A stretch of DNA of 64,000 nt from Actinoallomurus bryophytorum (lineage in GTDB: Bacteria; Actinomycetota; Actinomycetes; Streptosporangiales; Streptosporangiaceae). Under the pieces are notes generated by a model. The model saw only the letters and a program-made list of their open reading frames with translations. It searched no databases and was not told the origin of the DNA. A program made the translations under genes and the position numbers. The stretch is taken from positions 1,116,001 through 1,180,000 of the forward strand of contig NZ_VFOZ01000001.1 in NCBI RefSeq assembly GCF_006716425.1, read 5' to 3'. This document shows, in pieces, positions 4,085 through 57,977 of the stretch (the stretch's first letter is position 1; each line of letters opens with the position of its first letter).

Positions 4085-5419
4085 TCACAGCAAGCGGCCG
4101 AGGTGGTCGGTCAGTAGGTCGCGGAAGACCACGGAATCGCGTAGGTCCGGGCCGAAGACGTCGGTGATCGACAGCAGTGCGTCCACCACCTTTTCCGGAC
4201 TGTCCGCGCCTGCCACGGCCTTTCGCAGCGTCTCGGCCATCGGGTCGTCCAGCTCCTTCGCCGTCTTGACGTGGCGCATCCATGCCGCCACGGCCAGCGC
4301 CGCCCAGCGGGGTTCCTCCCCGGTCGCCAGGCGGTCGCGTACGACGCCGAGCAGTCGCTGCGGCAGCTTCTGCGAACCGTCCATCGCGATCTGGGCGATG
4401 CGGTGCCGCAGGGCGGGGTTGGCGAAGCGTTCGATCAAAGAGGACTTGTACGCGGCGAGGTCGAAGCCGCGTGGCACGTCGAGTGTCGGGGTCGCGTCCT
4501 CGTCCATGTAGTGACGCAGGTCGTCGCCTAGCCCGCCGGCGATCGCGTCGGAGACGTAGGTGAAGTCCGCGCCCAGGTAGGCCAGCATCGAGTGCGCGCC
4601 GTTGAGCAGGCGCAGCTTCATCGTCTCGTACGGCGCCACGTCGGTGGTGAGGATCGCTCCAGCCGTGTCCCACGCGGGCCGGCCGGCCGCGAAGGTGTCC
4701 TCGATGACCCACTGGGAGAACGGCTCGGTGACCACGACGGCCTCGTCGCGCACGCCGAGCAGGCGTTCGGCCTCGTCGAGGTCCTCCGGGGTGGTCGCGG
4801 GCGTGATGCGGTCCACCATCGCGTTCGGGAAGGTTACCTCGCACGGGAGGCGGATGCCGCCTCGGTCGCAGTACTCCTCGACCAGCCCGCGTACGAACGA
4901 GCCGTTGGCGGTGAGGTTGTCGCAGCACAGGACGGTCACCGGCGCCTCGCGCCCGGCGAGGCCGCCGACCAGCCGGCCGATCACCGTCTCCGGCGGTCGC
5001 CCGGCCAGGTCGCGGAGGATCTCGGGGTCGTCAACGCGCAGCCGCCTCGTCGCCGGGTCGTGCCGGTAGCCCTTCTCGGTCACCGTCAGGGAGACGATCT
5101 TCACCGCGGGGTCGCCGATACGCGCGACCGTGGCCGAGCCGGTGAGCACCTCGCGTACCGCTCCGATGACGCGCGCCGAGACGCCGCCGGGTCCGCGCTC
5201 CAGCACGCTGTACAGGCCGTCCTGCGGCGCCAACCGCGACGCCACGGCCGCGCTGCGCTGGGTGATCCCGCAGATCCCCCAGCCGTCGCCGGCGTCCTCG
5301 GTGTAGACGGCCTGGTGGGCACGGTGGAACGCCCCGATGCCCAGGTGCACGATCCCGACCGAGGCCGGAACCTCACGAGGCCGGCTCGTCAGCGACAACC
5401 GCAACGTGGTCTCCCTCAC
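4085..5419 (-). CDS. uxuB: Mannitol dehydrogenase-family oxidoreductase (fructuronate reductase-like)
   Basis: A 444-residue protein of the polyol-specific long-chain dehydrogenase family. It has the N-terminal HLGIGAFHRAHQ Rossmann signature at 25-36, CDNLTANG at about 166-173, FPNAMVDRITP at about 197-207, and the catalytic Lys268, Asn273 and His276 in MKLRLLNGAH. Family members interconvert fructuronate and mannonate, tagaturonate and altronate, or mannitol and fructose. The two sugar-acid dehydratases directly upstream point to fructuronate or tagaturonate. The GTG start overlaps the uxaA-like stop by 4 nt. It is the last gene of the operon and abuts the XRE remnant. Confidence 0.85.
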   Translation of the reverse strand: MRETTLRLSLTSRPREVPASVGIVHLGIGAFHRAHQAVYTEDAGDGWGICGITQRSAAVASRLAPQDGLYSVLERGPGGVSARVIGAVREVLTGSATVARIGDPAVKIVSLTVTEKGYRHDPATRRLRVDDPEILRDLAGRPPETVIGRLVGGLAGREAPVTVLCCDNLTANGSFVRGLVEEYCDRGGIRLPCEVTFPNAMVDRITPATTPEDLDEAERLLGVRDEAVVVTEPFSQWVIEDTFAAGRPAWDTAGAILTTDVAPYETMKLRLLNGAHSMLAYLGADFTYVSDAIAGGLGDDLRHYMDEDATPTLDVPRGFDLAAYKSSLIERFANPALRHRIAQIAMDGSQKLPQRLLGVVRDRLATGEEPRWAALAVAAWMRHVKTAKELDDPMAETLRKAVAGADSPEKVVDALLSITDVFGPDLRDSVVFRDLLTDHLGRLL

Positions 5420-6849
5420 ATGACCGCCCCCAGCTGCCAGGGGGCGAACTCCTCGTCGCCGAAGCCGAGCTCCTCACTTGCCGTCTTGCGGCCCGACGCG
5501 ACCTCCAGGACCAGGTCGAAGATCTGTGAGCCCAGCTCCGCGACCGTGACCTCGCCGTCCAGGATCACACCGCAGTCGACGTCCATGTCCTCGGCCATCG
5601 CCCGGTAGACCTCGCGGTTGCTGGCCAGCTTCAGGCTGGGCGCCGGACGGCAGCCGTACACCGAGCCCCGGCCGGTCGTGAAGCAGATCAGGTTGGCGCC
5701 GCCGGCGACCTCCCCGGTCGCCGAGACCGGGTCATAACCCGGGGTGTCCATGAACACGAAGCCCCGCGAGGTGACCGGCTCGGCGTACTCGTAGACCGCG
5801 GTCAGCGGCGTGGTGCCGCCCTTGGCGACCGCGCCGAGCGACTTTTCCAGGATCGTGGTCAGGCCGCCCGCCTTGTTGCCCGGCGAGGGGTTGTTGTCCA
5901 TCGACTCGGCGTAGGACTCCCACCAGCGAATCCGCGAGACCAGCCTCTCGCCGACCGCACGGGAGACCGCGCGGCGGGTCAGCAGGTGCTCGGCCCCGTA
6001 CACCTCGGGCGTCTCGGCCAGGATCGCGGTGCCGCCGTGGCGTACGAGCAGGTCGGCGGCGGCGCCGAGAGCCGGGTTGGCGGTGATTCCGGAGTAACCG
6101 TCCGACCCGCCGCACTGCAGGCCGAGGACGAGCTCGGAAGCGGGTACGGGCACGCGGGTGACCGCGTCCGCGGCGGGCAGCAGCTCGCGGATCACCTCCA
6201 GACCGCGGCGTACGGTCGCCGAGGTGCCGCCGAGCTCCTGGATGGTCATCGTCGGGGTATCGGCCGGCAGGTCGAACCCGGTGAGCTGGTTGACCTCGCA
6301 GCCGAGGCCGATGACGAGGATCGCGGCGAAGTTGGGATGCCGCGCGTAGCCGTTCAGGGTGCGGCGCAGCAGCCGGATCCCGTCGCCGTCAGACGCCATG
6401 CCGCAGCCGGTGCCGTGGGTCAGCGCCACGACACCGTCCACGTTGGGGAAGCCCTCCGTGGACGCCCGCGCGGCGATCATCCGGGCGACCGTCGCCGAGC
6501 AGTTCACCGAGGTGAGGATGCCGATGTAGTTGCGGGTGGCGACCCGCCCGTCCGGCCGCCGGATGCCCTGGAAGTGCGCGGGCGCGGGCACCGGCTCGAC
6601 CTCGCGTACGTCGGTGCCGAAGGCGTAGTCCCGGTCGTGCGGCCCCATGCCGAGATTGTGGGTGTGGACATGCGAACCGGCCGTGATCGGCGCGGTCGCG
6701 ACGCCGATGAGCTGGCCGTACTTGCGGATCGGGGCACCGGAGGCGAGGTCGCGGACGGCCACCTTGTGGCCGCGGGGTACGCCGGGCAGGTCGCGCAGGG
6801 CCACCGCCACGTCGTCGTCGGGCTGTAGCAGCAGGGTCTCACCAGTCAT
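5416..6849 (-). CDS. uxaA: UxaA-family altronate/sugar-acid dehydratase
   Basis: A 477-residue protein with an N-terminal SAF domain (about residues 1-80) and the C-terminal UxaA dehydratase domain. Visible family motifs are [35 protein letters not shown] and [15 protein letters not shown]. Family members are iron-dependent and dehydrate D-altronate to 2-keto-3-deoxygluconate; galactarate and other hexarate dehydratases are close relatives, so specificity is inferred. I start at the ATG at 6849, which has GGGAG about 7 nt upstream, instead of a TTG six codons earlier. It overlaps the end of the manD-like gene by 11 nt. Confidence 0.85.
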
Positions 6850-8050
6850 GCATGCTCCCGTCCTCAAGGCGGTTGACCGGCAGATACGCCTGCCGGTAGG
6901 GGTACGCCGCGGCCGCCTCCTCGTCGATGTCGACGCCGAGACCGGGCTCCTCCGAGGGGTACATCGACCCGTCCGCGAAACGGTACGAGTGCGGGAAGAC
7001 GGCGTTCGTGGCCGAGGTGTGCGGCATGTACTCCTGGATGCCGAAGTTCGGCACCGCGATGTCGACGTGCAGCGCGGCCGCCAGGCACACCGGCGACAGG
7101 TCGGTGGCGCCGTGCGAGCCGGTGCGCACGTGGTACAGGTCGGCCAGGTCGAAGACCCGGCGCAGATGGGTGATGCCGCCGCCGTGCACGACGTCCATCC
7201 GGATGTAGTCGATGAGCTGCTCGGTGATCAGCTGGTGGCAGTCCCAGATGGAGTTGTAGACCTCACCGACCGCGATCGGCGTCGTGGTGTGCTGCCGGAT
7301 GAGCCGGAACCCCTCCTGCAGCTCCTCGGAGATCGGGTCCTCCAGCCAGAACAGGTCATGCGGCTCGAGAGCCTTGCCCAGCCGTGCCGCCTCGATCGGG
7401 GTGAGCCGGTGATGCGCGTCGTGCAACAGGTGGAAGTCGCGGCCGAAGCGGGAGCGTACGGCCTCGAACAGCCCCGGGATGAAGTTGAGGTACTTCGTGG
7501 TCGACCAGGTCTCCTCGTCCGGCCGCTCCCCGGCGAGAGCGGGCTCGTACGGCTCCCCCGTCACCGGGACGCCGTAGACCTTCTCCAGGCCCGGAATGCC
7601 GACCTGGACCCGCACCGCGCGGTAGCCGCGGCCGAGGAGGTCCCCGACCTGCTCCAGCGCTTCGGGGATGGTCGCGCCGTTCGCGTGGCCGTACACCGTG
7701 ACCGCGTCGCGCGACCGCCCGCCGATGAGCTGGTAGACCGGCATGCCGGCCGCCTTGCCCTTGATGTCCCACAGTGCCGTGTCGACCGCCGCGACCGCGG
7801 TCATCGTCACCGGCCCGCGCCGCCAGTACGCGCCCTTGTGCAGGTACTGCCAGGTGTCCTCGATGCGGCTCGCGTCGCGGCCGATCAGGAGCTGGCAGAC
7901 GTGGTCCCGCAGGTACGAGGCGACCGCCAGCTCACGGCCGTTGAGGGTGGCGTCGCCCACCCCGGTCAGGCCGTCGTCGGTGGTCAGCTTCAGGGTCACG
8001 AAGTTGCGGTCGGGGCAGGTGACGATGACCTTGGCCGCGACGATCTTCAC
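6839..8050 (-). CDS. manD: D-mannonate dehydratase ManD-type enolase-superfamily enzyme
   Basis: A 403-residue, full-length enolase-superfamily protein of the ManD/RspA group. The metal ligands fall at Asp211, Glu237 and Glu263, with His213 in the HDAHH segment. The Tyr/Arg pair used as general base in characterised ManD is present as Arg147 and Tyr159. Together these support dehydration of D-mannonate (and possibly D-gluconate) to 2-keto-3-deoxygluconate in the cytosol. GTG start, 7 nt after the isomerase-like gene. Having both ManD and UxaA in one operon suggests that more than one epimeric acid is processed. Confidence 0.88.
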
Positions 8051-8057
8051 CGTGGCC

Positions 8058-8798
8058 TCATCCCGTCTGGACCCAGGCGTGCTCGGGGTCGAGGTAGGGG
8101 ATCATCTGCCGGCCCTGGCCCGCCATCACCCACAGGTAGCAGAGCTTGTAGCCGGGCGCGGCGACGACCGGGTGGTAGCCGGCCGGGATCGCGGCGACGT
8201 CGCCGTCGCGGACGGTGAACGCCTCCTCGCCCTTGCCGTCGTAACGGAGCTGGATGCCGAAGCCGTTGGCCGGGTCGAGCTTGAAGAGGTAGACCTCCTC
8301 CAGCTTCACCTCGCGCGGCGGCTCGTGGGTGTCGTGCTTGTGCGGCGGGTAGCTGGACCAGTTGCCGGGCGGGTTGATCGTCTCGCCGAGCAGGAGTCGC
8401 CCGGCGTCGTCGCCCGGGCCGAGGATGGTACGGACCGTACGCGACCAGTTCCCCTCACCGCGCTCGGCGACGTCCTGGTCGGCCGGGCCGATGATCCGCG
8501 CCGTGCCGGGGGTGCCGTCGCCGAGCGGGGCGTAGGCGATGACGATCTGCGCGGGACCGCCGGTCGCCTCGAACCGCAGTGGCGTGCCCGGTGGCGCGTA
8601 CACGGTGTGGCCCGGTCCGTCGAAGACGTCGCTGCGCCCGCCCGCGGTGCCGAGCCCCTCGACGTCGACGACGCCGGAGAGGACCACGGCCGCGATCTCG
8701 GCGTCACGGTCGAGCTCGAGGGTCTCACCGTCGGCCAGGTCGGCCAGGTCGAGCCCGATCAGCTCGGTTTCCTTGCCCGGGGTCAGCAGGGTTCTCAA
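8058..8798 (-). CDS. KduI/IolB-family isomerase (5-deoxyglucuronate isomerase-like)
   Basis: A 246-residue double-cupin protein. The metal site is visible as PPHKHD at 151-156, Glu168 and YHP around His209, within the [12 protein letters not shown] signature typical of IolB. IolB isomerises 5-deoxy-glucuronate in inositol breakdown, and the related KduI acts on 4-deoxy-5-keto-uronate. No other inositol genes are present, so here it may isomerise a uronate entering this pathway. The TTG start at 8798 has AAGGAG 5 nt upstream and overlaps the permease stop by 4 nt. It is slightly shorter than typical IolB (about 270). Confidence 0.75.
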
Positions 8799-30242: not shown

Positions 30243-31694
30243 CTAGGACGTGGTCCACTGCTGGTTGGTGGCGCCGGTGCAGGTCCAGACCTGCAGCCGG
30301 GTGCCGTTGGCCGAGCTCGGCCCCGTGGCGTCCAGGCACTTACCGCCCGCGCTGCTGACCAGGGAGTTGTTCGCGCCCTTGCTCCACTTCTGGTTGGCCG
30401 CACCCGTGCAGTCCCACAACTGCACCGTCGCGCCGTTGGCGGTACCGGGCGCGTTCACGTCCATGCACTTGCCCAGGGCGCGGATCGTGCCGTCCGAGCC
30501 CACGGTCCACTGCTGCGCCGTGCTGCCGTTGCAGTCGTACAGCTGGACGGCCGCGCCGTTGGTGCTGCTCGCCGCGGCCACGTCGACGCACTTGCCGCCG
30601 TAGCCGGTGATCTGACCGCCGGTGCCGCCACCGCCACCGCCGCCACCGCTCGAACCGCCGGTGATCGCGTTGAAGGTGCGGGAGAACTGGTACGCGCTCT
30701 GCGGCGTGCCGCTGCAGGTGTCGGAGAGCTGGCCGTTGGTCGAACACGCCTTGTCACGGCCGAGCGCCCAGAACGCGAGCTCCTGGATGCCGTGGCTCGC
30801 CGCGAAGCTTTCCAGCGTCGTGGCGTTGCCGGTGGTGAAGATCTCGTTCTGGGAGTCGTTCACGCCGATCATCGGCGTGTTGCCCTCCATGGCCCACAGC
30901 TGGTCGGAGGTCTTGGTCGTCCAGATCTTGCCCAGCTGCGTGTGAAGGCCGTTCGCCGCGTTGATGGCGGTCTGTCCCATGTCAAGAGTCGGGCCGTAGT
31001 CCATCGTCATGGGGTTGACGAGGTTGACGTCCAGGCCCCGGCTCTTGGCGTTGTTCAGCAGGTCGAGGCCGTCCTGCGGCAGGCCGCCGGGGTCGGTCGA
31101 GAGGGTGTAGTCGACGGTGAGGTGCTTGCCGGCCGCGGCGTACTGCTGCTGGAGCGCGGCGAGCGCCTGGTTGCGCCGGTCGTTGGCGGCGTCGTCGTCG
31201 ATGACCCCCTCGCCCTCGATGTCCATGTCCACGCGGGTGAGGTTGAGGGTGTCGATGACCTTCTTGTACTGCGCCTGCAGCGCGGAGACCGACGAGCACG
31301 CCTGGGCGAGCTCGGTCGGGGCGGCGCCGCCGAAGGAGACGATGACGTCGCCGCCGGAGGCACGCAGGTTGTTGATCGCGGTCTGCCACCCGCTGCTGTC
31401 GATGGAGGTGTCACCGTTCCAGGTGGCGGTGCAGCCGTTGCCGGCGATGACGAAGGCGAGTGTGTAGTACTTCAGCCCGGTCGCGGCCTGGGCGCTGGCC
31501 ATGGCCGAGGTCGAGCCCCAGGTCTCGACGTACGGGGCGGCGTAGTGGGCGGGGAAGCCCGGTCCCGGGTTGACCGCCGCGTGCGCGGCCGTCCCGGTGC
31601 CGACCATCACACCCGCGGCCGCGAGGGGGATCGCGGCGAGCGCGGCGAGACGGGCCAGCCCGCGCCGGGGCGTGCTGAACAGAGGTCGTGGCAT
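30243..31694 (-). CDS. Secreted GH18 chitinase with CBM13 module
   Basis: A 483-residue exported enzyme with a twin-Arg-containing signal (PRRGLARL, hydrophobic 16-32, cleavage near AHA-A). The GH18 barrel contains VSFGGA on strand 3 and the catalytic D156-M-D158-I-E160 with Glu160 as acid; the first Asp of the usual DxxDxDxE is Thr here. ELAFWALGRD near the barrel end supplies the conserved Trp. A poly-Gly linker joins a CBM13 trefoil almost identical to those of both neighbours. It should hydrolyse chitin. AGGAGA precedes ATG 31694 by 8 nt; 49 nt separate it from the GH30 gene. Confidence 0.9.
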   Translation of the reverse strand: MPRPLFSTPRRGLARLAALAAIPLAAAGVMVGTGTAAHAAVNPGPGFPAHYAAPYVETWGSTSAMASAQAATGLKYYTLAFVIAGNGCTATWNGDTSIDSSGWQTAINNLRASGGDVIVSFGGAAPTELAQACSSVSALQAQYKKVIDTLNLTRVDMDIEGEGVIDDDAANDRRNQALAALQQQYAAAGKHLTVDYTLSTDPGGLPQDGLDLLNNAKSRGLDVNLVNPMTMDYGPTLDMGQTAINAANGLHTQLGKIWTTKTSDQLWAMEGNTPMIGVNDSQNEIFTTGNATTLESFAASHGIQELAFWALGRDKACSTNGQLSDTCSGTPQSAYQFSRTFNAITGGSSGGGGGGGGTGGQITGYGGKCVDVAAASSTNGAAVQLYDCNGSTAQQWTVGSDGTIRALGKCMDVNAPGTANGATVQLWDCTGAANQKWSKGANNSLVSSAGGKCLDATGPSSANGTRLQVWTCTGATNQQWTTS

Positions 31695-31743
31695 GAAGAG
31701 TTCTCCTGACGGGGGTGAAATGAAACGGTGGTGACGGAGATGG

Positions 31744-33645
31744 CTAAGGGGTGGCCCACTGCTGGTTGGTGGCGCCGGTGCAGGTCCAGATCTGCAGCCG
31801 GGTGCCGTTGGCCGAGCTAGGGCCGGTCGCGTCCAGGCACTTGCCCGACGCGGGGTTGACGAGCGAGCTGGACGCGCCCTTGCTCCACTGCTGCGCGCCG
31901 GAGCCGTTGCAGTCGTACAGCTGGACCTGCGTGCCGTTGGCCGTACCGGCCGAGGCCAGGTCCATGCACTTGCCGAGCGCCTTGATGGTGCCGTCGGAGC
32001 CGACCGTCCACTGCTGCGCGCCCGAGCCGTTGCAGTCGTACAGCTGCACCGCCGCGCCGTTGGCCGAGCTGGCCCCGGCGACGTCGACGCACTTACCGCC
32101 CAGGCCGGTGATCTGGCCCGTGCCGCCACCGCCACCGCCACCGCCGTTGCCGCTCTGCGTGCCGTTCCAGGTGAACGTCGCGGTGGTCTTGGCCGGCAGG
32201 GAGTAGGTGAACGACTCGCCGCCCCAGTTGACCTTCATCGACTGCGCGGAACCGGTGTCGTTGTAGGCGACGAGCGCCTTGGAGCCGTCCGGGTTGCGCC
32301 AGGCGACGTTGGGCACGGAGGAGTTGGCCGTAGAGTCGATGCGGTATGCGCCGGGCTTGACGAACTTGGTGAGCTGGCCCATGTCGTAATACTCGACCGT
32401 GTAGTCGACCTGCCCGCTGCGGCTGTCGCCGTTGTGCACGGTGATCAGTCCGGTGCAGGTGCCGCAGCCGCCGTTGTGCGGGCCCATGTTCTGGTCCACG
32501 GCAAGCGACCACTTCACCACGCTCTTACCCCAGTTGCGGGTGTAGTCGATGATGTTGTGCATGTCCTCTTGCTGCTGGTTCCCGATCCAGGTGCCGCCGG
32601 AGTGCTCGGTGTCGTAGGCGTCCAGGTTCGGGTACTGGTTGTGCGTCGTGGTCTGCTGGCCGACGTCGCCGCCGTAGCCGTGCCAGGCGATGCCGCCGAA
32701 GTTGGGGTCGTTGCGGATGGCGGTGTCGTCCACCTGCGGCGCGCCGTAGCTCGCGTAGGTGTCCCAGTTCCAGTCCAGTGCGAGGACCTTCGTGGACAGG
32801 CCGGCGGTGTGGAAGGCCGGCAGCAGGTTGGTCTTGGTGAAGTAGTCCAGACCTGAGCCGTTCCAGCTCATCGACGGATACCCGCCGCAGCACGTCGGCT
32901 CGTTCTGTGCGGACACGAAGTCGATCGGCACGCCCTGAGCCTGGTACGCCTGGATGTACTTCACGAAGTACTGGGCGTACGCGGCGTAGTACTGGGACTG
33001 CAGCCAGCCGGGCTGGTTGAACGTGCCGTTGTCCTTCATCCAGGCCGGCGCGCTCCATGGCGTGGCCATGACCTTGAGGGCCGGGTTGAGCTGCCGTGCC
33101 TGCTTGGTCAGCGGCAGGACGTCGGCCAGGTCGTGGGAGATGGAGAAGTGGCTGAGGCTCGGGTCGGTCTGGCCGGAGGGCATGTCGTCGAAGGAGTAGT
33201 TGCTCCGGGCCAGGTCGGAGGCGCCCATCGGGTTGCGCAGGAAGTCCAGGCCGATTCCGCTGTTCGGGTCGAACAGCTGCTGCATCACCTGGGTGCGCGT
33301 CGTCGAGCTGAGCGCTCCGCTGCTGTTCATCAGCCAGGCGGCGGTGTCGGTGAACGACGCGCCCGCGCCGGTGAACTGCTGGTAGCGGTTGTTCTCGTTG
33401 ACGGTGATGTTCTGGGCGCCGCTGCCACCGGTCCCGAAGGTGATCGGCGTCTGCTGCTGCAGCCCGCGGGTGACGTGGCGGCCGCCGCTGTCATCGGTCG
33501 TGGTCAGCCAGATGTTGACGCTTTCACCCGCGGCGTGCGCGGGAGAGAGCCCACCGGTGAAGAGTGCGGCGACGAGAGCAAGGAGTGCGGAGGAGGCGAA
33601 CAGCCGTGCGGGCCTTTGGCCGGCGCGGCGGGCTTTCTTCTTCAT
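31744..33645 (-). CDS. Secreted GH30 glucanase (beta-1,6-glucanase-like) with CBM13 module
   Basis: A 633-residue exported enzyme. Signal peptide 1-38 (KKKARR, hydrophobic core, AHA cleavage). The GH30 catalytic barrel (about 85-420) shows acid/base Glu249 in SAQNEP and nucleophile Glu347 in YDTEHSGG, with a beta-side domain to about 490. A poly-Gly linker and C-terminal CBM13 follow (three QQW repeats). GH30 members of this type cleave beta-1,6-glucan; glucosylceramidase and xylanase activities exist in the family, so specificity is inferred from its GH16 and GH18 neighbours. First gene of the cluster, behind a long leader with 38-bp repeats. Confidence 0.88.
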   Translation of the reverse strand: MKKKARRAGQRPARLFASSALLALVAALFTGGLSPAHAAGESVNIWLTTTDDSGGRHVTRGLQQQTPITFGTGGSGAQNITVNENNRYQQFTGAGASFTDTAAWLMNSSGALSSTTRTQVMQQLFDPNSGIGLDFLRNPMGASDLARSNYSFDDMPSGQTDPSLSHFSISHDLADVLPLTKQARQLNPALKVMATPWSAPAWMKDNGTFNQPGWLQSQYYAAYAQYFVKYIQAYQAQGVPIDFVSAQNEPTCCGGYPSMSWNGSGLDYFTKTNLLPAFHTAGLSTKVLALDWNWDTYASYGAPQVDDTAIRNDPNFGGIAWHGYGGDVGQQTTTHNQYPNLDAYDTEHSGGTWIGNQQQEDMHNIIDYTRNWGKSVVKWSLAVDQNMGPHNGGCGTCTGLITVHNGDSRSGQVDYTVEYYDMGQLTKFVKPGAYRIDSTANSSVPNVAWRNPDGSKALVAYNDTGSAQSMKVNWGGESFTYSLPAKTTATFTWNGTQSGNGGGGGGGGTGQITGLGGKCVDVAGASSANGAAVQLYDCNGSGAQQWTVGSDGTIKALGKCMDLASAGTANGTQVQLYDCNGSGAQQWSKGASSSLVNPASGKCLDATGPSSANGTRLQIWTCTGATNQQWATP

Positions 33646-51002: not shown

Positions 51003-51576
51003 GCTCGGTCCGGAGGTTGTGCCGGGCGACGGCCTCCCACCGCTCCCGTGCGGGGGCCGTACGGAACAGCGCCGGCAGCCCCAGCAGGCTCTCCAGGATG
51101 TCCGCGCGGCCCGCGCGGAACGCCTCGTCCGGCACCGCGGCGTACTCCTCACGTACGGCGGCGGCGTAGCTCGCGTAGCGGTCCGGGGACGCGGCCAGGA
51201 CGGCCAGGTCCGCGTCGCACAGGACGGCGCCGTCGCGGTCGCCGTCGCGCGGGTCGTGCGTCGTGGTCAGCCGGACCAGGCGGGCGACCTCGGCGACGGT
51301 CCCCGCCGGCAGGTCGGTGTCGGCGAGCATCCGCTCGGCCAGGACCGCGCTGCGCTCCTCGTTGTCGCCGCGCGACGGGTCATAGATCGCGTCGTGGAAC
51401 CAGGCCGCCAGGCGTACGGCGTCGACGTCACCTGCCTCGGCGGCCAGCTCGTCGACGCGGTCGAGCACCTCGGCGAGATGCTCGGTGGTGTGGTAGCGGC
51501 GGTGCGGCTCGCCGTAGCGGCGCAGGAGGTCCGTGCCGATCGCCTCCGGGCCCGGCCAGCGGCTCAGGAGTTCCAT
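50956..51576 (-). CDS. HD-superfamily metal-dependent phosphohydrolase
   Basis: A 206-residue protein related to COG4339. YHTTEHL near the N-terminus and AWFHDAIYD carry the His and HD metal ligands, and DADLAVL holds a later Asp. Substrate unknown; nucleotides are plausible. It starts on the last base of the ABC ATPase stop (TGATG) and its 3' end overlaps DUF4031 antisense by 47 bp. Confidence 0.82.
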   Translation of the reverse strand: MELLSRWPGPEAIGTDLLRRYGEPHRRYHTTEHLAEVLDRVDELAAEAGDVDAVRLAAWFHDAIYDPSRGDNEERSAVLAERMLADTDLPAGTVAEVARLVRLTTTHDPRDGDRDGAVLCDADLAVLAASPDRYASYAAAVREEYAAVPDEAFRAGRADILESLLGLPALFRTAPARERWEAVARHNLRTELMLLGRASGGADPRG

Positions 51577-52379
51577 CAGGCGGCCCTCGCGGTCCAGCGG
51601 CCTGCGGCCTTCTCGATGGTGATCGGGTGGTCGAAGCAGGCACTGATCAGTTCGGTGGTCAGGACACCGTCGACGGCCCCTGAGGCGAGCACCCGTCCGT
51701 CCCGCAGCAGCATCGCGTGGGTGGTGCTGGCCGGGAGCTCTTCCAGGTGGTGGGTGACGAGCATGCTGGTCAGCGACGGCTGGGCGCGCCGCAGCAGGTC
51801 GATGGAGGTCAGCAGCCGCTCGCGGGCGGCGACGTCCAGGCCGGTGGCGGGCTCGTCGAGCAGGAGCAGCCGGGGCCGCGGCATAAGGGCGCGGGCGATG
51901 AGCGTACGGCCGCGCTCGCCGTGCGACAGCGTGGGCCAGCGGGCGTCACGGTGCGAGACCAGCCCGAGCAGCTCGATGAGCTCCTCGGCGCGGTCCAGCT
52001 CCTCCGGCTCGGGCTTCCAGTGCGGGACCAGCTCGATGCTGCCGGTGAGGCCGGTGAGGACGATCTCGTGGACGGTGCGGGCGGAACGGAGCGGATGACT
52101 CGGGTTGACGTGCCCGATCCAGGCGCGCAGCTCGCGTACGTCCACGCGGCCGAGGCGGTGGCCCAGGATGTGGACCTCCCCGCTCGTCGGGTGCTGGTAG
52201 GCGCCGAGCAGGCTGAGCAGGGTGGACTTTCCGGCGCCGTTGGCGCCGAGCAGCGCCCAGTGCTCGCCCTCGCACACGGTGAGGGACACGTCGTCGAGCA
52301 GCGCCCGGCGCTCGCGTACGAACCGGACATCCTGCGTGCGCAGCACGGCCGGCGGCTCGGTGGTCATCGCGATGCTCAT
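51576..52379 (-). CDS. Stand-alone ABC transporter ATP-binding protein
   Basis: A 267-residue ATPase: Walker A GANGAGKST, signature LSHGERGR (His in place of Gly), Walker B LLLLDEPATG and switch VTHHLEEL. It is most like the YlmA/ModF-type free ATPases. No permease is nearby, so it may act with a distant partner or as a soluble ABC protein. Its start faces the iron box and the siderophore operon 174 bp away, so control by iron is possible but unproven. Confidence 0.85.
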   Translation of the reverse strand: MSIAMTTEPPAVLRTQDVRFVRERRALLDDVSLTVCEGEHWALLGANGAGKSTLLSLLGAYQHPTSGEVHILGHRLGRVDVRELRAWIGHVNPSHPLRSARTVHEIVLTGLTGSIELVPHWKPEPEELDRAEELIELLGLVSHRDARWPTLSHGERGRTLIARALMPRPRLLLLDEPATGLDVAARERLLTSIDLLRRAQPSLTSMLVTHHLEELPASTTHAMLLRDGRVLASGAVDGVLTTELISACFDHPITIEKAAGRWTARAA

Positions 52380-52515: not shown

Positions 52516-52534
52516 TTAGGTAAGCCTTACCTAC
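52516..52534. promoter_or_regulatory. Iron box (IdeR/DmdR operator)
   Basis: TTAGGTAAGCCTTACCTAC is a 19-bp site with perfect 8-bp arms (TAGGTAAG / CTTACCTA) around a central C. It agrees with the actinobacterial iron box TTAGGTTAG-CT-ACCTAA (dashes mark variable bases) at most positions. It lies 20 bp before the GTG of the siderophore operon, where iron-loaded IdeR/DmdR represses. Confidence 0.9.
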
Positions 52535-52553
52535 CTCACCATGCGGGGGACTC

Positions 52554-53669
52554 GTGCGGCTCTACATCGTGGCCGGCAAGCAGACCGACTCGGTGACGCA
52601 CGGGTTCCTCCCGGCGGCCGCCGCGCTCGGTCTCGACGTCACCCTGCTCACCGACCGCGCGTGGCCGGTGGAGACCGTGCGCTGTGACGTCACGGACTTC
52701 CGCTCGATCATCGCCGCCGTCGCGCGCGACGCGGACACGCCCGCGGCGATCTTCTCCAACAGCGACCATCTCCAGGCGCCGGCCGCACTGGCCGCCGACT
52801 ATTTCGGGCTCCCGTGCAAGGACTGGCGAGCCGCACTGCGCACCAAGAACAAGGCCCTCATGCGCCGGACGCTCCGCGGGGTGTACGCGGCCGAGCTGCT
52901 GCCCGGCGACAAGCCGCCCGAGGGCGCGCCGTACCCCCTCGTCGTCAAGCCGCGCGAGGGCGTGGCCAGCGAGGACGTCTTCCTGGTCGGCGACGCGACC
53001 GAGCTCGCCGCCCGCTGCCGGGAGATCTGGGCCCGGCGCCACGAGGCGCTCGTCGCCGAGGAGTACCTCCCCGGCCGGCTGCACACCCTGGAGACCCTGA
53101 ACGGCCAGGTCATCGGGGGATTCCGTACGACGGTCTCGGCTCCGCCCCACTTCGTCGAGGAACGCCTCGACTGGACCCTGCCGCCCTGCGCGGAGGAGGT
53201 GCTGGCCGGGCTGCGGACGCTGGGCGTCGGCTTCGGCGCGTGTCACACGGAGTACGTCGTCCACGAGGGCCGCGCCCGGATCGTGGAGGTCAACTACCGG
53301 ATCATCGGCGACCACTGCGACTTCCTGCTCGCCGACCTGCTGGGGGTGCCGATCTTCGAATGGGTGCTGCGCGCGCACCTCGGCGAGCCGGTTCCGCCGG
53401 TCCCGTCCGCCCCCGGCCACGCCACGGTCGACTCGGTGATCGCCGAGCGGTCCGGCACACTCGCCGCGGCTCCCCCGCGGCAGGAGTACGAGACCGGCGG
53501 TGTGCGGCTCGCCTACTGGCCGGTCCGTACGGCCGGTGACACGATCGAGCTGACCCGTACCAACCGCGACTACGTCGGCATGATCCGGGCTGTCGGCTCC
53601 GACGCCGCGGGCGTCGAGGCGGCGATCCGCGGATTCCGCGCCGGGCACACCTGGGAGATCATCCCTTGA
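52554..53669 (+). CDS. ATP-grasp ligase of siderophore biosynthesis (PvsA-like)
   Basis: A 371-residue ATP-grasp protein. The ATP-binding middle has PLVVKPREGVASEDVFLV and the C-terminal half EVNYRIIGDHCD with the metal-binding Glu/Asn. Such ligases join an amino acid to a carboxylate; in vibrioferrin PvsA does this step with alanine and 2-oxoglutarate-derived units. Its place before two NIS synthetases and a decarboxylase fits pvsA. GTG 52554 follows GCGGGGGA and the iron box. It overlaps the next gene by 4 nt (TTGA). Confidence 0.8.
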   Translation: MRLYIVAGKQTDSVTHGFLPAAAALGLDVTLLTDRAWPVETVRCDVTDFRSIIAAVARDADTPAAIFSNSDHLQAPAALAADYFGLPCKDWRAALRTKNKALMRRTLRGVYAAELLPGDKPPEGAPYPLVVKPREGVASEDVFLVGDATELAARCREIWARRHEALVAEEYLPGRLHTLETLNGQVIGGFRTTVSAPPHFVEERLDWTLPPCAEEVLAGLRTLGVGFGACHTEYVVHEGRARIVEVNYRIIGDHCDFLLADLLGVPIFEWVLRAHLGEPVPPVPSAPGHATVDSVIAERSGTLAAAPPRQEYETGGVRLAYWPVRTAGDTIELTRTNRDYVGMIRAVGSDAAGVEAAIRGFRAGHTWEIIP

Positions 53670-55201
53670 CCGGTGACGCCGCGACGGTGCGGGCCGGCCG
53701 CGAGACCTACCTCGCCGCGCGGGTCCTCGACGCATTGGTCCGCGAGGACTACGGCGGCCTGTCGGGCCGTGTCTCGGGTGAGGTCCTGGCGCTGCCCGGG
53801 GGGCGCGTCGTCCGGCTGACCCGCGAGCCGTCCGGGGCGGGGCGGTATCCGGGGTTCCTGGCCGACCTGGTCGTGGACGACGTGCTCACCCTGGATGAGG
53901 TGCTCGCCGCGGTGCGGGCGCTGGCCGACCCCCGCGACGACGTCACCGCCTTCGAGCGCGAGTGCCGTGAGGCGCTCCGCAGTCTGCGGCTGTACGACGC
54001 GGTGACGCCACGGCCGCACGGCATCGCCCGCTACGAGGCGCTCGCCGCGACCGTCGACCATCCGGTCTATCCCACCGCGCGCTGCCGCCTCGGAGTGGAC
54101 GAACGCGATCTGCTCGCGTACGCGCCCGAGTTCGGCCCGTCCTTCCGGCTGTGCTGGACCACGGTGCCCCACTCCACGTGCCGGGGCGACCGGCCTGCCT
54201 GGTGGCCCACGGCGGCCGACCTCGGGATGCCCGGAGACCTCGACGTGTTCCCGGTGCATCCGCTGGCCGCGCGGCTGATGCCCACGGTGACCGGCCCCGC
54301 CGTCACCGTCCGGCCCACCCTGTCCATGCGCACGGTGGTGGTCGGCACCGATGAGCAGCTCAAACTGCCGCTGCCGACGAGCACCCTGGGCCTGCGGAAC
54401 CGCCGGGTGATCATGCCGGCCACGCTCGCCGACGGCGCCCTCGTCGAGCGCGTGCTCCGCGCCGTACTCGCGCGGGAGGGATCTCCCGTGCTCCTGGCCG
54501 ACGAGCAGACCTGGGGGCACGCCGACGACCCGCTCCGCGGCTACCTGCTGCGCCGGATGCCGGCCGAGGGAGTGCCGGTGGCGGCGCTGCTGGCCCGCAC
54601 CGAGAAGGGCGGACACGTCATCGAGGAGCTCACCGACGACGTGCCCTCCTTCTTCGGGAGCTATCTCGGCGCGCTGTTCGACTGGAACGTCATGCTCCTG
54701 ACGAAGTACGGCATCGCGCTCGAGGCCCACCAGCAGAACGTCTCGGTCGTGCCCGGCGAACCCCTGCGGCTGATGATCAAGGACAACGACGGGGCCCTGC
54801 TCGACCTGCGCCGCCTGCGCGAGACGCTGCGATGGGCGCCGGAGCCCGCGGAGTTCGGTGACCGGCGGCTGCTGACCTCCGACCCCGAGGCGCTGGCCCG
54901 GGTGTTCACCACGATCACCGTGCACCTGTGCGCGGGGGCGATCGCCTTCGGGCTCGCCGAACGGGGCCTGCTCCCCCTCGCCACGGGCCTCGGCCTGATC
55001 CGCGATCATCTCGGCGCGGCGCTCGACGCTCACGACGGCTCGGGCTTCCTCCGCGCCCGGACCCTCGAGGCCGACCGGCTGCCCGGCAAGGCCATGGTCA
55101 CCGCGGGGACGCTCGTCGGCAAGGACCGTACCCGCGCCGAGGACATCAACAAGCACTACGGTCCGCCGGGACCGAACTACCTGAAGAGGTCTGCGCATTG
55201 A
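53666..55201 (+). CDS. NIS siderophore synthetase, IucA/IucC family (first)
   Basis: A 511-residue NRPS-independent siderophore synthetase. Family motifs: DHPVYPTARCRLG (the usual H-P-x-H-P has Tyr for the second His), KLPLPTSTLGLRNR in the ATP site, GIALEAHQQN, and IKDNDG. They adenylate a carboxylate (typically citrate) and condense it with an amine or alcohol. The TTG start overlaps the ATP-grasp stop, and the stop overlaps the next start. Corresponds to pvsB by position. Confidence 0.85.
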   Translation: MTGDAATVRAGRETYLAARVLDALVREDYGGLSGRVSGEVLALPGGRVVRLTREPSGAGRYPGFLADLVVDDVLTLDEVLAAVRALADPRDDVTAFERECREALRSLRLYDAVTPRPHGIARYEALAATVDHPVYPTARCRLGVDERDLLAYAPEFGPSFRLCWTTVPHSTCRGDRPAWWPTAADLGMPGDLDVFPVHPLAARLMPTVTGPAVTVRPTLSMRTVVVGTDEQLKLPLPTSTLGLRNRRVIMPATLADGALVERVLRAVLAREGSPVLLADEQTWGHADDPLRGYLLRRMPAEGVPVAALLARTEKGGHVIEELTDDVPSFFGSYLGALFDWNVMLLTKYGIALEAHQQNVSVVPGEPLRLMIKDNDGALLDLRRLRETLRWAPEPAEFGDRRLLTSDPEALARVFTTITVHLCAGAIAFGLAERGLLPLATGLGLIRDHLGAALDAHDGSGFLRARTLEADRLPGKAMVTAGTLVGKDRTRAEDINKHYGPPGPNYLKRSAH

Positions 55202-56856
55202 CGTCGCTCGCCCACGCCGCACCGTCGCGGCCCGCCCTCGCCCCTGCGGAGACACGGCCACGAGCCGACGCGGGTGAGATCACCGCGCTGGCGTTGCTCA
55301 ACTGCGCGGTGCGGGAGCTGTGCGCGCCGGGCCGGCAGGTCTGGCCGGCCCTGCCCTATCTCGTCGTGCGCCTCCCCCGCGCCGGCGTGATGTTGCGGGC
55401 CCGGCTGCTCCGCTCGCCGCTGATGACCCCAAGGCTCGCGACGCCCGTCGAGGAGCTGCGCGACGGCTGGAGCCCGCTGGGCTGGCAGCGGCTCGCCGAG
55501 CTGGTCGCCGGCGAGCTGGAGCTGACGACCGGCAGGGCCAACCCCGAGTTCGCGGACCAGGTCGCGGCCAGCCACGACGCGATCGCGACCATGATCGGTG
55601 AGGGGCGGCGGCCGGCCGGTGATCCGTTCCTGGACTCCGAGCAGGCGCTCCTCGCCGGGCACCGGTTCCATCCTTCGCCCAAGGCGCGGCAGGGAGCGGA
55701 CTGGCCGCGCTACGCCCCCGAGACCGGCAGCCGGTTCCCGCTGCACTGGCTCGCGGTCCGCGAGGACGCCATCGCCGAGGAGGGCGACGTCTCCCTGCTG
55801 GACCGGCTCGGCCCGCCGGTCCGTGCGGGCTACCGAGTGCTGCCCGCCCACCCCTGGCAGCTCGCGCTGCTGAGGCCGGAGTCCGAGGCGATCATCGACC
55901 TCGGGCCGTACGGCCCGGAGGCCGTGCCGACCGCCTCGGTGCGTACGGTGTACGTCCCCGACGCGTTCCTGAAGTTCAGCCTCGACGTGCGCATCACCAA
56001 CTGCGTGCGCAAGAACGCCTGGTACGAGCTGCCCGGCGCGGTCGCGCTGACCAGGATCCTGCGGCCGGTCTTCGAGGGCCTCTCGGCCGGGCTGCTCGGC
56101 GAGCCCGGCTACCGGACGGTCACCCTGACGGACCCGCGGCTGCACGAGGGACTCGGGGTCATCGTGCGCGACGGCGTCGGCGGCTTCGCGGGCACGCCCC
56201 TGCTCGCCGCCGCCGTCGCCGACCCGTACGCCCGCAGCGGCGCGGCCGTCGCCCGGCTGCTCGGCGGTGCGTCCCCAGAACACCTGCTGGCCTGGTGGGA
56301 CGCCTACGTCCGGCACGTCGCCCCGCCGGTGCTGCGCGCGTACCTCGAACACGGTGTCGTCCTCGAGCCCCACCTGCAGAACGTCCTGATCTGCCTCGAC
56401 GACGACGGCATGCCGATCCAGGCGATCTTCCGTGACCTGGAGGGGACCAAGCTGCTGCACCGGCCGTGGGCCTCGTTCCTGGCCGGGCTGCCCGGACCCG
56501 TGGCCGGCGCCATGACGTACGACGCCGAACGCGGCTGGGACCGCGTGGTGTACTGCCTGTTCGTCAACCACCTGGCCGAGGTCGCCGCCGCGATCGCCGA
56601 CCTGTGCCCGCCGCTGGAGCGCGAGCTGTGGCGCCTGGCCCGCCACCACGTCGCACGCTGCGCCGGGGAGACGCCTGCCGTACCGGGCGGAGCGGCCCGC
56701 CTGCGCGCCCTGCTCGCCGGGGTCCCGCTGCCGGCAAAGGCCAACCTGCGCACCCGCTGGGCCCGCGATCCCGACCGCGAGGCGGCCTACGTCTCCGTGC
56801 CGAACCCCCTCGCCGACCTCGGCGCGGTCCCCGGTTCTCGTCCGGGGGTGGCCTGA
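55198..56856 (+). CDS. NIS siderophore synthetase, IucA/IucC family (second)
   Basis: A 552-residue paralogue of the first synthetase with complete motifs: GHRFHPSPKARQG, SVRTVYVPDAFLKFSLD with the ATP-site Thr/Lys, TNCVRKN, GVVLEPHLQN and FRDLEGT. It has a standard HP-x-x-K in place of the altered His of its neighbour. TTG start overlapping the previous stop. Corresponds to pvsD. Two NIS enzymes imply a siderophore with two carboxylate couplings. Confidence 0.87.
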   Translation: MTSLAHAAPSRPALAPAETRPRADAGEITALALLNCAVRELCAPGRQVWPALPYLVVRLPRAGVMLRARLLRSPLMTPRLATPVEELRDGWSPLGWQRLAELVAGELELTTGRANPEFADQVAASHDAIATMIGEGRRPAGDPFLDSEQALLAGHRFHPSPKARQGADWPRYAPETGSRFPLHWLAVREDAIAEEGDVSLLDRLGPPVRAGYRVLPAHPWQLALLRPESEAIIDLGPYGPEAVPTASVRTVYVPDAFLKFSLDVRITNCVRKNAWYELPGAVALTRILRPVFEGLSAGLLGEPGYRTVTLTDPRLHEGLGVIVRDGVGGFAGTPLLAAAVADPYARSGAAVARLLGGASPEHLLAWWDAYVRHVAPPVLRAYLEHGVVLEPHLQNVLICLDDDGMPIQAIFRDLEGTKLLHRPWASFLAGLPGPVAGAMTYDAERGWDRVVYCLFVNHLAEVAAAIADLCPPLERELWRLARHHVARCAGETPAVPGGAARLRALLAGVPLPAKANLRTRWARDPDREAAYVSVPNPLADLGAVPGSRPGVA

Positions 56857-57977
56857 TGCCGCTGCCCGGGGCCGTACGGGAATGCGCGCTGTCCGTCGCG
56901 CCGCCCGCGTACGTCTACGACCTGGCCGGCCTGCGCGCGCACGCCGCCTCGATACGCGCGGCGGTCCCGGCGGAGTTCTTCTACGCGGCCAAGGCCAACC
57001 CCGACGCGCGGCTCCTCACGGCGCTCAAGCCGTACGTCGACGGGATCGAGGTGTCCTCCGGCGGCGAGCTCGCGCACGTTCGCGAGGTCCTGCCGGACGC
57101 GCGCGTGGCCTTCGGCGGGCCGGGCAAGACCGCGGAGGAGCTGGACGCCGCGTTTCCGCTCGCGGGCCGCCGCCTCCACCGGATCCACGTCGAGTCGCCG
57201 GGCGAGCTGCGCCGCCTCGCCGCGCTCCGCCGCGAGGCGGACGTTCTCCTGCGCGTGAACCTCCCGCTCGCCGCGGCCGGGGCGTCACTGCGGATGAGCG
57301 GCCCGTTCGGGATGGACGCCGAGGCGCTGGGGACCTGCCTCGACCTGCTGGCGCGCGCGCCGTGGCTCCGGCTGCGCGGCGTGCACGCCCATCTCGCGTC
57401 CGGCCTCGACGCGGTGCCGCTGCTCGACGTGGCGGCCCAGGTGCTCGCGTGGGGGCGTTCATGGCTGGACGGCGTAGACGGCCCGGCGGAGTTCAACGTG
57501 GGCGGCGGTATGGCGGTCGACTACTGCGCGCCCGGCCGCCGCTTCGACTGGGCGGCGTACGGCACCGGGCTGGCGGCGCTGCGCAGGCCCGGCGAGGTCC
57601 TGCGGATCGAGCCGGGCCGCGCGGTCACGGCCTACTGCGGCTGGTACGTCACGGACGTACTGGACGTGAAGCGGACGCACGGAGCGTCCTACGCCGTTCT
57701 GCGCGGCGGCACCCACCATCTGCGCACCCCGGTGGCCAAGGGACACGACCAGCCGTTCACCGTGCTCCCGGTGGGCGACGGGGCGGCGGTGGACGGACCG
57801 GTCACGGTCGTGGGGCAGCTGTGCACGCCCAAGGACGTGCTCGCGCGGAACGCCGCCGTCGAGCGCATCGCGGTCGGCGACATCGTGGCGTTCGCGCTGG
57901 CAGGGGCCTACGCCTGGAACATCTCACATCACGACTTCCTGATGCACCCGAAACCGGGCGTCCACTACGTCGGCTGA
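56856..57977 (+). CDS. PLP-dependent fold-III decarboxylase (PvsE-like)
   Basis: A 373-residue alanine-racemase-fold decarboxylase. The PLP Lys is Lys46 in FFYAAKANPD; HAHLASG, the phosphate-binding NVGGGM and EPGR follow; the C-terminal half has LCTPKDVL with the active-site Cys. In siderophore loci such enzymes make a diamine or ethanolamine-type building block. It shares 1 nt with the previous stop and ends the operon before a terminator. Confidence 0.87.
   Translation: MPLPGAVRECALSVAPPAYVYDLAGLRAHAASIRAAVPAEFFYAAKANPDARLLTALKPYVDGIEVSSGGELAHVREVLPDARVAFGGPGKTAEELDAAFPLAGRRLHRIHVESPGELRRLAALRREADVLLRVNLPLAAAGASLRMSGPFGMDAEALGTCLDLLARAPWLRLRGVHAHLASGLDAVPLLDVAAQVLAWGRSWLDGVDGPAEFNVGGGMAVDYCAPGRRFDWAAYGTGLAALRRPGEVLRIEPGRAVTAYCGWYVTDVLDVKRTHGASYAVLRGGTHHLRTPVAKGHDQPFTVLPVGDGAAVDGPVTVVGQLCTPKDVLARNAAVERIAVGDIVAFALAGAYAWNISHHDFLMHPKPGVHYVG

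Follow-up and report, generated by a model that had tools for sequence, protein, structure and literature searches.

A 64,000-nucleotide stretch of the Actinoallomurus bryophytorum genome (contig NZ_VFOZ01000001.1, positions 1,116,001 to 1,180,000; hereafter the window) was found to carry, at window positions 52516 to 57977, four biosynthetic genes in an operon behind an iron box. The operon is real and under constraint, and it belongs to the type represented by the avs genes of Streptomyces avermitilis and the pvs genes of Vibrio. Judged from its sequence, it very likely directs the iron-repressed synthesis of vibrioferrin or of a closely related citrate/2-oxoglutarate siderophore. Gene set, gene order, orthology, box and selection were established here; the individual reactions and the product are what we infer. 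The operon consists of the following elements:

52516..52534, + strand: iron box, a DtxR/IdeR-type palindrome of sequence TTAGGTAAGCCTTACCTAC (genome consensus scan and box scan of 80 loci)
52554..53669, + strand: gene A, PvsA-type ATP-grasp ligase, 371 aa, GTG start (best matches to A proteins, alignment, weak ATP-grasp matches)
53666..55201, + strand: gene B, PvsB-type synthetase of the nonribosomal peptide synthetase (NRPS)-independent siderophore (NIS) class, 511 aa, TTG start, its first motif in the HPxYP form (families, orthologue matches, motif alignment, tree)
55198..56856, + strand: gene D, PvsD/AcsD-type NIS synthetase, 552 aa, TTG start (families, match to AcsD 2w02 with E=5e-62, orthologue matches, tree)
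56856..57977, + strand: gene E, pyridoxal phosphate (PLP)-dependent fold-III decarboxylase of the PvsE/AcsE/SbnH type, 373 aa, ATG start (families, match to 6knh with E=5e-72, orthologue matches, tree)

The four genes lie in tandem with consecutive overlaps of 4, 4 and 1 nt, all four frames are intact, and 19 nt separate the iron box from the GTG of gene A. Family models assigned B and D to both IucA_IucC and FhuF-like, and E to the N and C domains of Orn_Arg_deC. Gene A gave weak matches to ATP-grasp and LAL_C2 models, all three under the Pfam cut-off. The original prediction, made from the letters of the window, had described four tightly overlapping genes after a 19-bp iron box that encode an ATP-grasp ligase, two NIS synthetases and a PLP decarboxylase; coordinates and overlaps confirmed the layout, and family, orthology and tree results confirmed the gene set.

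For orthology, the operon was compared with four annotated plasmid loci, namely those of Vibrio fortis (L023; called pvs from gene order and content, as the record itself does not use that name), Rhodococcus oxybenzonivorans pRB29, Cupriavidus necator and Pantoea soli. Each of A, B, D and E best matched its own counterpart, one-to-one, in all four. Identities of A were 46% (Rhodococcus), 45% (Cupriavidus), 40% (Pantoea, annotated PvsA) and 35% (Vibrio fortis), and those of E were 52% (Rhodococcus), 47% (Cupriavidus), 45% (Pantoea) and 42% (Vibrio). The two synthetases were clearly told apart: B matched its counterparts at 43% (Rhodococcus), 37% (Pantoea), 34% (Cupriavidus) and 32% (Vibrio), all with more than 180 bits, and no D-type protein scored above 43 bits with it; D matched at 45% (Rhodococcus), 36% (Cupriavidus), 34% (Pantoea) and 32% (Vibrio), all with more than 200 bits, and no B-type protein exceeded 60 bits. 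A PvsA-type ligase is thus followed by PvsB- and then PvsD-type synthetases and a PvsE-type last gene, so that the gene order of the vibrioferrin locus, as originally proposed, was borne out.

A phylogeny of 23 NIS proteins, the check called for by the prediction, agreed with these matches. B joined PvsB (support 100/99), and D fell into a clade with PvsD and the AcsD-type protein of Sodalis (support 100/100); two other Sodalis rows formed long branches of unsure placement. Among solved structures, the best relative of D was AcsD (2w02) and that of E was 6knh, which we take to be SbnH; A and B gave weak matches only. Parts of the AcsD and 6knh types also serve the achromobactin and staphyloferrin B pathways, and the closeness of D and E to them would fit a desferrioxamine, staphyloferrin, petrobactin or achromobactin locus. 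Such a locus is nevertheless highly improbable. We know of no place for an ATP-grasp gene such as A in any of these four pathways, none is annotated in the achromobactin-type locus of Sodalis, and B groups with PvsB. NCBIfam models for staphyloferrin and rhizoferrin synthetases (SbnC, SbnF, FslA) scored 18-30 bits against cut-offs of 700-1000. B and D were the only two PF04183 (IucA_IucC) proteins found in the genome, hence no separate DesD was found. On the IucA_IucC count and the curated-model scores, a desferrioxamine or staphyloferrin locus was rejected.

Gene B carries Tyr in place of the second His of its motif (DHPVYPTARCRLG). This substitution, which had been taken as a hint that the product may differ, is real but not distinctive. 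HPxYP occurred in 25 of 27 aligned B-type proteins, that is in 22 of the 24 actinobacterial rows (window included) and in all three of Vibrio, Cupriavidus and Pantoea, and is therefore a feature of the PvsB family; the His form was seen in Rhodococcus and L043. Tyr as a sign of a different product was accordingly rejected.

Iron control was examined in the own genome (9.47 Mb) and across a set of 80 loci, the best 80 of 556 relatives. Scanning the genome with a degenerate DtxR/IdeR-type consensus returned five sites with at most one mismatch, the operon box among them. The reversed pattern gave no match at up to three mismatches, which argues that the operon box is not due to chance. A box with at most three mismatches was located upstream of gene A in 78 of the 80 loci (best control stretch: six mismatches); in the two others, L099 and L106, importer genes precede A. 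The predicted box by which vibrioferrin-type operons would be controlled is thus present and conserved. As the box suggests, iron-loaded DtxR/IdeR would bind it and block transcription, and iron starvation would lead to release.

The seven closest of these 80 loci (78-89% identity for A) comprised six from Actinoallomurus and one from 'Actinomadura sp. DC4'. Comparison of the window with seven genus loci yielded ratios of nonsynonymous to synonymous substitution rates (Ka/Ks) of 0.15-0.29 for A, B, D and E; the two stops counted for D in this test are natural ends, at residues 544 and 546 of 552. Within the genus, purifying selection acts on the operon. A decaying remnant that has lost its transport genes and no longer works would be in line with the lack of a linked exporter or importer and with the failure to find E in some relatives. 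Such decay is scarcely conceivable given the intact frames, the Ka/Ks values, the box in nearly all loci, and the matches of A and D in 8/8 genomes of the genus; the reading as a pseudogene is contradicted by the selection test.

A PvsA profile (E<=1e-60) was matched by 185 of the 297 family genomes sampled, representing 34 of 68 genera. An initial search among relatives gave matches to D in 27 of 60 genomes, the own genome counted; some of these matches were so weak that they may represent other NIS types. All 80 loci had A, while B was counted in 79 of them, D in 77 and E in 65; loci L071, L093 and L102 end shortly after A or B, so that the absence of later genes is uninformative there. A, B and D were present and E was not found in L068, L072, L077, L078, L095, L097, L100, L108, L110, L115 and L122.

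Neighbours of the operon are HD and M20 genes in the Actinoallomurus loci and in most of those from Actinomadura; in most Nonomuraea loci, NUDIX and UvrD/RecB-like helicase genes border it on either side; where in range, the Nonomuraea-type helicase gene is also found downstream in Actinoallomurus and Actinomadura. A tree of concatenated A, B and D (83 rows; four of 82 loci dropped for missing parts; group labels from record titles) follows the taxa, with Streptomycetaceae, the Nonomuraea group, Actinoallomurus, and Actinomadura plus kin separate. Proteobacteria and actinobacteria are split with support 1.0, and Rhodococcus stands outside the other actinobacteria at a support of 0.38, an unsure position. 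Tree and neighbourhoods together point to mainly vertical inheritance of the operon.

Vibrioferrin synthesis by these enzymes would proceed as follows. D would join citrate to the side chain of L-serine, and E would decarboxylate the serine part to O-citryl-ethanolamine; A and B would then finish the chain by adding 2-oxoglutarate and an amino acid, which in vibrioferrin is alanine. This order of steps is proposed because D is kin to AcsD and E to the 6knh protein, and in view of the activities of these two. Several points weigh against the assignment to vibrioferrin or a close relative. Identity to the Vibrio proteins is just 32-42%, which makes a change of substrate possible. E was undetectable beside A, B and D in 11/80 loci although the locus continues, and one of the 80 (L088) has neither D nor E detectable; the product of E-less loci may keep serine, or E may be supplied from elsewhere. 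The neighbouring window genes examined include none for an exporter, a binding protein or a receptor, in agreement with the original prediction. A PvsC relative was not found in the own genome at E<=1e-5 (assembly rated 95.8% complete). Two reviews propose that serine is decarboxylated first and that PvsA makes the ester (PMC5577590, PMC6836290), and the former states that the functions of the Pvs enzymes remain untested. Finally, the prediction was to be doubted if the operon proved to be a common actinobacterial cluster with an assigned product. Common it is, by the PvsA marker, and an experimentally assigned product for any actinobacterial copy was not found in a search of open-access papers, which covered few subscription journals.

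Some of these points bear on the alternative of a different carboxylate siderophore, in which the backbone logic is kept and another amine or amino acid replaces serine/ethanolamine or alanine. The low identity to the Vibrio proteins, the lineages of actinobacterial proteins apart from the Proteobacterial ones, and the loci without E all speak for it. On the other hand, alignments showed that motif columns, like all four families, persist from Vibrio through to Actinoallomurus, and the supposed argument from Tyr fails since Tyr is shared with Proteobacterial PvsB. A different carboxylate siderophore, which overlaps with the 'close relative' allowed for above, is a tentative alternative that we consider rather doubtful.

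In the window B and D overlap, so that no gene lies between them at the place of the exporter gene pvsC. All four reference loci, Rhodococcus included, carry pvsC, and Streptomycetaceae are mixed. Among the 80 loci a pvsC-like gene of the major facilitator superfamily (MFS) was present in five, all from Streptomyces (L099, L106, L112, L114, L124), and was not found in the other 75, some of which are cut by contig ends. Nor was such a gene found in a further 20 loci, which partly repeat genomes of the 80-locus set and of which one, L036, is cut short. As a control, the PvsC query used on the own genome matched in 2/2 Streptomyces genomes that carry pvsC, gave only weak matches in one Nonomuraea genome, and gave no match in A. 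spadix. Hence, the absence of pvsC from the operon stands, but it is not the special trait it had seemed, and exporter loss as a peculiarity of this strain was rejected. Given pvsC in all four reference loci, tree and neighbourhoods are most simply read as loss of pvsC from the operon on the way to Streptosporangiales. Probably the export pump has its gene elsewhere and is unrelated to PvsC.

FecB/FecCD-type uptake genes were likewise not seen near the operon. One FecB/FecCD/ATPase system was found in the own genome; it is located at C1:7811625-7820114 (L148), where iron boxes and the importer stand beside an NRPS gene with adenylation, methyltransferase, carrier and condensation domains. As dedicated uptake for the operon the importer (C1:7811-7815k) was rejected, since its binding protein resembles that of Rhodococcus at only 31%, an NRPS gene adjoins, and a close match (81%) to this binding protein occurred in only one of the seven other genus genomes. 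Being the sole such system found in the genome, it may still take up the operon product. FecCD genes, not all of them orthologous, were detected in 6/8 genus genomes; the remaining two are fragmented assemblies (380 and 500 contigs), one of them 87% complete. In one species, an iron-box importer (L177, genome G003, 4611-8605) is possibly a detached cognate uptake system, as its binding protein shares 44% identity with the one encoded in a pvs-type locus of Streptomyces.

Iron boxes in the own genome also precede FTR1- and DyP-type genes, that of FTR1 about 20 bases before the predicted start. FTR1 was found in 8/8 genus genomes and so accompanies the operon in every one. A deeply conserved operon that lost exporter and importer in Streptosporangiales could then make an extracellular iron solubiliser, with iron re-entering via an FTR1/EfeUOB-like route in place of a siderophore receptor; we consider this unlikely. 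In the five Streptomyces loci, A, B, D and E are accompanied by FecCD genes, a FecB-type binding protein gene and the pvsC-like MFS gene, which ties the gene set to siderophore traffic. A separate iron-box locus of the own genome (C3:411719-411757; L156 4891-7222) has ornithine/lysine monooxygenase and formyltransferase genes diverging from iron boxes; a gene resembling ABC exporters is close by, and the locus is a probable one for a hydroxamate siderophore.

The left neighbour of the operon is a lone gene for an ABC ATPase (51576-52379, - strand) that overlaps the HD-domain gene. It stands beside the operon in 7/7 genus loci, with Ka/Ks of 0.16-0.26. As a part of the system this divergent gene was rejected, because it is not upstream of the operon in Actinomadura loci and overlaps the HD-domain gene. 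Further away, at 30243-33645 (- strand), the window contains two adjoining glycoside hydrolase genes, each with a ricin-type lectin domain; one is of GH30 type and the other has a GH18 match just under the cut-off.

Operons of this kind are already known in soil actinomycetes, and there the lack of the exporter gene is usual, not exceptional. PMC9394381 describes avsABCD (genes 7320-7323) of Streptomyces avermitilis as a four-gene cluster for a 'vibrioferrin-like polyhydroxycarboxylate siderophore', its bounds drawn partly from Ikeda et al. By that published annotation alone, it resembles the window operon in having four genes with the exporter not counted, three of them 'siderophore synthetase components' and one a 'diaminopimelate decarboxylase' (PMC9394381). 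Further, a Streptomyces siderophore region is listed in PMC7385001 at 18% similarity to vibrioferrin, and PMC5812596 gives pvsABDE as the genes for vibrioferrin in V. parahaemolyticus. The window operon is not a full pvsABCDE operon but has an avs-like gene set. Genes for vibrioferrin-type synthesis are thus common and mainly vertically inherited in a large group of soil actinomycetes, rather than a speciality of marine Proteobacteria.

With Vibrio pvsABCDE (V. fortis) the operon shares the order of A, B, D and E, each with a one-to-one match, and HPxYP in B; it differs, apart from the degree of identity, in having no pvsC and no adjoining genes for TonB receptors or FecBCDE. Outer-membrane receptors are not expected in an actinomycete. 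The Sodalis pSG1 locus (L158), which we take to be achromobactin-type by its acs gene order, has an AcsD and an AcsE to which D and E of the window are related, but it has three NIS synthetases and no annotated ATP-grasp ligase. The Rhodococcus pRB29 locus has the same four genes as the window operon, at 43-52% identity, and differs in that a pvsC-like MFS gene separates B from D and that genes for a FecB-type binding protein and for a member of the aldolase/citrate-lyase family are also present, the former nearby. The five Streptomyces loci, too, have the same four genes and add a pvsC-like MFS gene between B and D as well as a FecB-type binding protein.

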